A DNA stretch of 64,000 bases from positions 1,488,001-1,552,000 of the forward strand of contig NZ_CP035730.1 of assembly GCF_012222305.1 (NCBI RefSeq), read 5' to 3'. How positions within the stretch are numbered: the stretch's first letter is position 1; each line of letters starts with the position of its first letter. Shown piece by piece: positions 21,948-38,896 of the stretch. The DNA comes from Sulfolobus sp. S-194 (GTDB lineage Archaea; Thermoproteota; Thermoprotei_A; Sulfolobales; Sulfolobaceae). The position numbers and the translations under genes were made by a program. The notes under the pieces are model-generated. The model did not search any database. It saw nothing but the letters and a program-made list of their open reading frames with translations, and was not told the origin of the DNA.

Positions 21948-21986
21948 TTTTTATATCCCCATTAATGAGATAATTGGTGGTCACTA

Positions 21987-22511
21987 ATTAAAATAATTGC
22001 AATTACTGGTATGCCCGGATCTGGAAAAGGAGAACTTGCCAAGATCCTCAGAGAAAAGGGAATAAAGGTAATCACTATGAGTGATGTCTTGAGAGAGAAG
22101 TATTATAAAGAAGCAAAAGAAGGAGAAAGACTAATGGATTTTGCAAAAAGAATTAGAGAGTTATACGGAAAAGGAGCAATAGCGAAACTTTGTATAGAAA
22201 AGATTGAAAGAGAAAAGATTGTGGCCTTTGACGGAGTGAGGAATTGGGAAGAGATAGAGGAGTTTAAGAAGATAGGCGATGTAACTATAATTGCAGTTCA
22301 CTCTCCTCCGAAGCTAAGATATGAAAGACTTCTTAAAAGAGGTAGAAAGGATGACACTTTAACCGTAGAGGGATTAGTGAAAAGGGATTGGGAGGAATTA
22401 GAGATGGGGATAGGGAATGTAATAGCGTTGGCTGATTACATATTAATTAATGATTCTACGATAGAGGAATTTAAGAGTAAGGCAGAAGAATTATTAAAGC
22501 GAATATTATGA
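21987..22511 (+). CDS. UPF0200 family P-loop nucleotide kinase-like protein, apparent AUU start
   Basis: A dephospho-CoA-kinase-like P-loop protein. The Walker A loop is [12 protein letters not shown]. The first ATG (22011) would remove the beta strand IKIIAIT that leads into the loop, so it cannot be the true start. In frame, no ATG, GTG or TTG exists between the upstream stop (21966) and 22011. An ATT at 21987 gives (M)[13 protein letters not shown], as in homologues, and is preceded by GGTGGTC at 21976-21982, a good match to the anti-Shine-Dalgarno CACCU. The rest has a lid region ([12 protein letters not shown]). It overlaps the UPF0201 gene by four bases. Substrate unknown. Confidence 0.85.
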
Positions 22512-37925: not shown

Positions 37926-38686
37926 ATATAAATACTAATGTAAAGGGGTTTAAACTTCTATTTTGATAAAAAGAATAAGAATATTTAAATTTTGTATTAT
38001 CAAATAAGTAATTATAATATTAGATTGAGTGAGCAAATTATCCCTATTGTATTAACTATGTCGCATCTTTGTGATTTTGACATGTAAGAATCGTTATTTA
38101 ATACATATACTCATTATAGAGAGCTCAAACTTTCATAGTAAATAGTAGTTAAGTAATTACTATTTACTCAGCCTTATCGCTCTTTCTTCAATATGAACCA
38201 TAAATTAGTCTGATTAATATAACCATGAGTGTTATTTATATTGTTGACTCCTTATTTGATAGCTATAAAAGGATTAAAAGTAGCTAAAGAGTGCAGGCAC
38301 AGTGTTATTATTAAAATATTTATATTTTGTATTTAAACAAAGTATATAAAGACATTATCTTAGCATCTGCTCTTTATAAAGATTTTCATTAATTAATAAA
38401 TTCATACCTTAATGACGGCAAAATGGATTATATTTACAATAAAACTCTTTTCTTTATTAAATTTCTAAAACATATTAAGATTTGGATGAGATAATAAATA
38501 TATAGAACTTTGTTTATTATGATAGTTATTTAAAAATTATTAACGTTATAATACGAATAGTTTCGGTCAACTCTCTCTAATATACTTATAACTTATTTAA
38601 GGGAAGGCTTCAATATTAAGTTTTACGTAGTATAGGGTATAGAGAATATATTAATAGACCTTGGAGTGTAATATTGGTGAATTACA
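37926..38686. other. Long non-coding region with an operator-like inverted repeat
   Basis: No gene is seen in these 760 bases. The one structured element is the inverted repeat at 38137-38168. Otherwise the sequence is AT-rich with short open frames lacking start signals. Confidence 0.5.
38137..38168. repeat. Perfect 11-bp inverted repeat with 10-base spacer
   Basis: AGTAAATAGTA at 38137-38147 and TACTATTTACT at 38158-38168 are exact reverse complements. The spacing of one helical turn between arms is typical of a dimeric regulator site. One arm recurs at about 39147-39158 as TAGTAAATAGTA. The regulator and target gene are unknown. Confidence 0.6.
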
Positions 38687-38896
38687 ATTCCCATAAAATA
38701 TGTTTGTAGAAATTGTGGTTATATTTTGTATAAATTTGAAAAGGTAGGACAGGATTTTTATGGAGTAAGAACCCCTTCAGAAATTAAAATAATATTTGGC
38801 GGTAAATGTCCTAAATGTGGTCACGAATTATCTACTCCTAAACTTGAAGATATACATATAAAGGTTAGAAATAAGATAAAACCAGTAATAGAATAA
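38687..38896 (+). CDS. Small zinc-ribbon protein, apparent AUU start
   Basis: The 69-codon frame encodes a compact zinc protein: PIKYVCRNCGYILYKFEKVG and GGKCPKCGHELSTPKL place two CxxC pairs at residues 7/10 and 41/44. No ATG, GTG or TTG occurs between the upstream in-frame TGA and the first cysteine. An ATT at 38687 stands six bases after GGTGA (38676-38680), a good ribosome site, and gives (M)PIKYVCRNCG. The protein looks complete and conserved in character, so it is probably expressed. The function is unknown; similar small zinc ribbons are common in Sulfolobales. Confidence 0.72.
   Translation: MPIKYVCRNCGYILYKFEKVGQDFYGVRTPSEIKIIFGGKCPKCGHELSTPKLEDIHIKVRNKIKPVIE

Follow-up and report, generated by a model that had tools for sequence, protein, structure and literature searches.

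Where does translation begin in a conserved gene whose reading frame has no AUG, GUG, or UUG ahead of its first conserved cysteines? The question is raised by a small zinc-ribbon frame in a 64,000-nucleotide stretch of the genome of Sulfolobus sp. S-194, a heat- and acid-loving archaeon (contig NZ_CP035730.1, positions 1,488,001 to 1,552,000 of the forward strand), which is here called the window and whose own coordinates are used for its features, all of them on the plus strand. The frame very probably represents a genuine gene that starts at the AUU codon at 38687 and exemplifies the use of near-cognate start codons at Shine-Dalgarno (SD) sites throughout Sulfolobaceae. This reading rests on DNA comparison, and translation from AUU is predicted.

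The zinc-ribbon frame and its putative start codon

The zinc-ribbon coding sequence, delimited by the open frame and by homologues found throughout the family, extends from 38687 to 38896, codes for 69 amino acids, and ends with TAA (38894–38896). Its first CxxC pair is located at 38705–38716 (Cys codons at 38705 and 38714) and the second at 38807–38818 (Cys codons at 38807 and 38816); the four cysteines are invariant in alignments of both 27 and 30 sequences. The putative AUU start codon (38687–38689), assigned from the aligned start column in relatives, lies six bases downstream of an SD-like GGTGA (38676–38680), inside which an in-frame TGA (38678–38680) closes the frame upstream. No ATG, GTG, or TTG occurs between that stop and TTG at 38726–38728, the first standard in-frame start codon, and it is solely from this TTG that the program-made listing of open reading frames (ORFs) reports the frame, as a 56-aa product that has lost the first CxxC. 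An earlier note, made from the window sequence alone, had described a 69-codon zinc-ribbon frame with two CxxC pairs and no standard start, had placed ATT 38687 six bases past GGTGA, and had predicted that gene finders would miss or truncate such genes; the description is exact, the spacing is confirmed in the sequence, and a truncation of the predicted kind is seen in the window's own ORF listing.

Homologues of the zinc ribbon were found in 56 of the 60 genomes searched, the window's own included, namely in all 31 genomes of Sulfolobaceae and in 25 of the 29 other genomes of the order. Among 27 aligned proteins Tyr5, Cys7, Cys10, Gly21, Gln22, Gly26, Glu32, Cys41, and Cys44 are invariant, and the gene differs from that of the congener G001 at 5 first, 6 second, and 33 third codon positions. 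On these comparative grounds the frame is a real gene, since it has homologues in every genome of the family, its cysteines are invariant, and its differences fall mostly in the third position.

The start column among relatives

When the DNA of the zinc-ribbon loci was lined up at the first residue, the start column of the 31 Sulfolobaceae genomes was found to hold ATT in 18, ATA in two, ATC in one, TTG in five, and ATG in five, the last being situated one codon after the column in two of the five cases. Thus, AUU, AUA, or AUC (collectively AUH) occupies the column in 21 of 31 genomes. Seventeen of the 31 loci, all of them AUH and the window gene among them, have no ATG, GTG, or TTG anywhere from the in-frame stop upstream as far as the first Cys codon. 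Outside the family, the same survey gave a standard start at the column in 24 of 25 loci (12 ATG, 6 GTG, 6 TTG), the remaining one having TTA. A separate scan comprised 37 zinc-ribbon loci, six of which are from Sulfolobaceae, and all the other 31 have a standard start (25 ATG, 4 GTG, 2 TTG); this outside set partly overlaps the 25 loci of the survey, and it contains one locus (L321) titled as deltaproteobacterial and some others titled just Thermoproteota or Thermoprotei. The concern that resequencing might turn up ATG at 38687, raised in the earlier note, is answered by the presence of ATT in the same column in 17 further species.

The choice among the AUH codons is itself biased. ATT accounts for 18 of the 21 AUH starts, as against 40 ATT, 109 ATA, and 30 ATC among the internal Ile codons of the same genes, an excess with a Fisher p of 1.6e-8 when relatedness is ignored. 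All 26 family loci whose start is not ATG have GGTG upstream, and none of the five with ATG does. Such covariation of the SD site with the start codon is no more than suggestive, since the five ATG loci come from three genera.

Near-cognate starts in other genes

The earlier note had counted two AUU starts in the window, both with proper ribosome sites. The second is most likely ATT 21987, the start of a gene (21987–22511) coding for a P-loop kinase, which we take to belong to the family named UPF0200; a GGTG lies at 21976–21979, seven bases 5′ of this ATT. The protein contains a P-loop NMP-kinase-like domain (AAA_18, E 1.4e-15; AAA_17, E 5.2e-14; both over the Pfam cut-offs). The phrase "proper ribosome sites" needs qualification for the zinc ribbon, whose SD match is 4–5 nt long and whose leader is perhaps short: an AT-rich promoter-like box, AATATATTAATAG, at 38645–38657, identical in G000 (the window's genome), G001–G003, and G019, would put the transcript start near 38676–38679.

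The UPF0200 gene was compared in 30 of the 31 family genomes (L057–L086), G010 being left out as it matched in two pieces. ATT is the start in 28 of the 30 loci and ATA in one, while G018 has ATG three codons before the column. In 21 of the 30 the sequence ahead of the P-loop contains no standard start. On a tree of 29 taxa (G005 and G010 missing) the start column underwent two changes, as compared with a median of 10 for the 46 codon columns of conserved residues, just one of which is equally constant. In six genomes outside Sulfolobaceae (G051, a partial row, is left out) a standard start is located at the site or at most two codons before it. As a side observation, ATT is the most constant codon of this gene besides codon 2, AAA.

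A third case is the essential gene for the TATA-binding protein (TBP), compared in 30 of the 31 family genomes, G021 being left out as it matched in two pieces. AUH follows GGTG by 6–7 nt in 29 of the 30 loci (ATA in 13, ATC in 8, and ATT in 8), and a standard start is lacking altogether in 20 of the 30. Among 21 genomes with a match outside Sulfolobaceae, 12 loci, from two other families, were read, and each has a standard start. PDB chain 1mp9, a TATA-binding protein of 198 aa, begins YIIPDEIPYK, without Met, and the 198-aa TBP frame of G017 and G009 begins like it directly after its stop, likewise without Met. In the window's genome the TBP gene is situated at C1:1660348-1660935 on the minus strand; the family loci are L142–L171.

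A fourth gene, sucD (C1:1480471-1481322, plus strand, in G000), may use an ACG start: ACG stands at the expected place in all 30 family loci compared (L172–L201; G005, which has no locus, is left out), and 6–7 nt after GGTG in 26 of them.

These genes also emerged from a scan in which 400 kb of the window's genome was compared with 400 kb of its congener G001. Among 262 conserved gene pairs, four lack an upstream standard start and have GGTG 7 nt ahead of a near-cognate codon, and these are the zinc ribbon, UPF0200, TBP, and sucD; in 39 pairs an SD site at 4–11 nt and a standard start came first. A Saccharolobus-like genome pair gave 41 of the latter kind among 276 gene pairs, TBP and the zinc ribbon recurring together with two further ATT candidates; UPF0200 was missed by the rule here because of its in-frame TTG and GTG. 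One of the two candidates, a small frame, has matches in just 3 of the 31 family genomes (with a 25-residue query). An AAG at spacing 10 in the same scan was taken as chance. In a cross-genus scan, with its many chance SD matches, the zinc ribbon and UPF0200 alone could be discerned.

The suggestion of the earlier note that AUU may regularly serve for initiation is therefore supported for the family, with ATT in 18 of 31 zinc-ribbon loci and 28 of 30 UPF0200 loci and AUH in 29 of 30 TBP loci. The feature appears broader than AUU, since it would also take in AUA, AUC, and perhaps ACG.

Points against, proposed mechanism, and alternative explanations

Several observations weigh against the proposed near-cognate initiation. 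TTG or ATG occupies the zinc-ribbon column in 10 of the 31 family genomes, and four AUH loci have a standard codon nearby in frame, namely G008, with GTG three codons 5′ of its ATA, and three g3 genomes, with GTG two codons 3′ of ATT. In UPF0200, GGTG is absent 6–7 nt upstream in 8 of the 30 loci, and in the Saccharolobus-like genomes the gene has an in-frame TTG as well as a GTG within the SD site, so that a leaderless GTG start is possible there. The same is possible for TBP in eight genomes, since in 8 of the 10 TBP loci that have a standard start this is the GTG of GGTG itself, in frame at spacing 6. The case of sucD is the weaker because its ACG overlaps the end of the sucC frame and because in 11 of the 30 loci a standard start is available past the upstream stop and ahead of the conserved core. 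Lastly, the zinc-ribbon start column has changed seven times on the 29-taxon tree, against a median of eight for 26 conserved codon columns; it changes about as often as other conserved codons, and so this gene alone gives little sign of selection for AUU.

The last point leads to the alternative that survives best, namely that AUU starts are tolerated and not selected: given a well-spaced SD site, ribosomes would accept near-cognate codons and genes would drift among them. It agrees with the mixture of ATT, ATA, ATC, TTG, and ATG in the zinc-ribbon column and with the change of the TBP start among ATA, ATC, and ATT from genome to genome. UPF0200, which keeps its ATT in nearly every locus with only two changes on the tree, speaks against it, and we regard drift as a serious contender that somewhat more probably fails as the full account.

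Its counterpart supposes that the weak codon has been retained for its effect of limiting expression and tying it to the start-codon stringency set by aIF1, a supposition for which UPF0200 makes the clearest case and the zinc-ribbon gene a weak one. In S. solfataricus, aIF1 reportedly promotes discrimination against non-canonical starts (PMC6237735), and genes with AUU starts should accordingly have low output and respond to aIF1. We consider such a throttle close to an even chance. A bolder extension, by which TBP, UPF0200, the zinc ribbon, and perhaps sucD and others would form a Sulfolobaceae regulon on a common dial of start stringency (aIF1, eS26, or growth state), with the zinc ribbon, in most relatives a neighbour of genes probably for tRNA maturation, perhaps helping to set the dial, seems unlikely.

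Whether kept or drifting, the near-cognate starts would most likely be placed by the SD site and use the ordinary initiator Met-tRNA. GGUG(A) would pair with the 3′ end of 16S rRNA and so place the 30S subunit, AUU would come into the P site at a spacing of 6–7 nt, and the initiator Met-tRNA (anticodon CAU) would read it by the first two pairs; the protein would then start with Met.

An improbable alternative is that translation begins at a standard codon elsewhere, either at the GTG inside GGTG, on a leaderless transcript and with a change of frame if needed, or at TTG 38726. A GTG is indeed present at 38677 in the window, the GTG of GGTG is in frame in the eight TBP loci and in the Saccharolobus-like UPF0200 genes mentioned above, and leaderless mRNAs reportedly make up 73 % of the total in S. 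solfataricus (PMC11698992). However, a spacing of 7, as found in the window and most AUH zinc-ribbon loci, puts this GTG out of frame, and the frame opened by GTG 38677 ends at TAG after ten codons. A start at TTG 38726 would remove Tyr5, Cys7, and Cys10, although both cysteines are invariant in the two alignments and Tyr5 is invariant in one and conserved at ≥90 % in the other. Moreover, two-thirds of the TBP loci (20 of 30) offer no standard codon.

It is still less probable that RNA editing converts AUU to AUG or that a dedicated initiator tRNA reads AUH. Since AUA, AUC, and perhaps ACG are also found at this site or at equivalent ones, either mechanism would call for several kinds of edit or tRNA, and we know of no U-to-G editing. 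That the zinc-ribbon frame might be open by chance or belong to a pseudogene, an idea prompted by its missing standard start and by its listing just from TTG 38726, can be dismissed almost entirely in view of its retention in all 31 family genomes with invariant Cys and mostly third-position differences.

Genomic context

In 27 of the 31 family genomes no more than ca. 5 kb separates the zinc-ribbon and UPF0200 genes; the distance is ca. 16–16.7 kb in the window's genome, ca. 16 kb in two congeners, and ca. 98 kb in G008. The shared cluster was read in 15 stretches of 14 genomes. It comprises a gene for a UPF0201-like RNA-binding protein (PF01877, E 1.4e-17) and one for a RIO-like kinase (PF01163, 20.3 bits, under the cut-off), together with genes whose products look like a ThpR-type phosphodiesterase, a CCA-adding enzyme, RNase Z, a tRNA methyltransferase, a ribose-phosphate pyrophosphokinase, a GPN-loop GTPase, and PCNA. 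The gene content of the cluster does no more than hint at a role of the zinc ribbon in tRNA or translation biology.

The zinc-ribbon protein

In Pfam and NCBIfam profile searches the zinc-ribbon matches of the protein were all under the curated cut-offs among the families listed, in one case the best 25 of 43. A sequence search of the PDB gave no close match, only weak ones to rubredoxins or to single knuckles. The AlphaFold2 (AF2) model has a predicted local distance difference test (pLDDT) score of 87.1; with it Foldseek found nothing at E 0.001, and VIA-align returned two rows, both with Z 2.0, the better being a weak match to 1t9p (root-mean-square deviation 4.0 over 45 residues), so neither program revealed a convincing PDB relative of the model.

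The nearest likeness is to rubredoxin, with whose knuckles C7xxC10 and C41xxC44 align, the first of them as CxxCGY; phmmer matches the zinc ribbon to rubredoxins at E 0.017. It differs in that RUBY_RBDX scores 21.2 bits against a cut-off of 26.5 and in that the window protein has no Trp and carries its own VGQDFYGVRTPSE motif. It also recalls aS34, which together with aS33 has recently been named as a small-subunit protein of Thermoprotei: aS34 is described as small, zinc-binding, and similarly spread (Sulfolobales, Desulfurococcales, and allies), but has ca. 80 residues, seven Cys, and one Trp (PMC11698992), as opposed to 69 residues, four Cys, and no Trp in the window protein.

Further candidate genes

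Some other loci were noted in the course of the scans. The second ATT candidate of the Saccharolobus-like pair is a gene at G016 C1 ~992568-993302, and the scan of G000 against G001 gave a further candidate at G000 C1 ~1329296. A threonine-synthase-like gene (G000 C1:1628283-1629482, plus strand) has GGTGAGCTATAGTTGGAAAC at its start in both G000 and G001, and in G016 its next standard start is eight codons on; AUA or GUU may therefore start this candidate.

A different situation is found in a riboflavin-kinase-like frame (G000 C1:1663210-1663857, minus strand; L259–L288, from 30 of the 31 family genomes), which begins without a start codon, behind a TGA that shares the frame of the DHBP-synthase-like gene ahead of it. 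The junction reads TGAAAAG in 17 of the 30 loci (in 16 of them as TTGAAAAG); in 15 of these it lies directly at the end of the DHBP-synthase-like gene, and in two a second in-frame stop precedes it. The other loci have ATG nearby. A TTG start with a one-base slip, read-through of UGA, or another recoding is possible. In G019 the best riboflavin-kinase match (C1:703998-704318, minus strand) covers query residues 6–110 and is located inside a 2784-aa open frame.

Significance and comparison with known systems

Gene finders that accept ATG, GTG, and TTG alone would miss or shorten conserved Sulfolobaceae genes, that for TBP included. Moreover, archaea with natural and conserved AUU, AUA, or AUC starts, some of them amenable to genetics, would make the tolerance of eukaryote-like initiation factors towards near-cognate codons testable in vivo.

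An AUU start is known from bacterial infC, coding for IF3. The likeness lies in a conserved AUU start that is expected to be weak and sensitive to the stringency of initiation; infC differs in being bacterial and in coding for the stringency factor itself, whereas here a zinc ribbon, a kinase, and TBP are encoded. An autoregulated loop of the infC type acting through aIF1 was considered and rejected, as the aIF1 gene has a conserved ATG: it lies 19–22 codons before the SUI1 match in all 30 family loci compared (G018, with no match, is left out), a point that also weighs against the proposed explanation.

A search for AUU, AUA, or AUC starts in Sulfolobales found no report in the open-licence literature, subscription literature lying mostly outside the search; for S. 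solfataricus a review lists AUG, GUG, and UUG percentages (PMC7531240). Near-cognate starts are known as a kind, and as far as can be seen their conservation in several genes throughout an archaeal family appears to be new. The closest demonstrated precedent found is sigR of Streptomyces, whose start codon is reported to be GTC and whose translation was shown by experiment to be repressed by IF3 (PMC5472188). Sulfolobaceae differ from it in that several archaeal genes, known from sequence, are concerned in place of one bacterial gene studied experimentally; what sigR would share with them is that a regulatory gene has a non-canonical start and is subject to repression by an initiation factor, with regulatory elements described as highly conserved across Streptomyces (PMC5472188).
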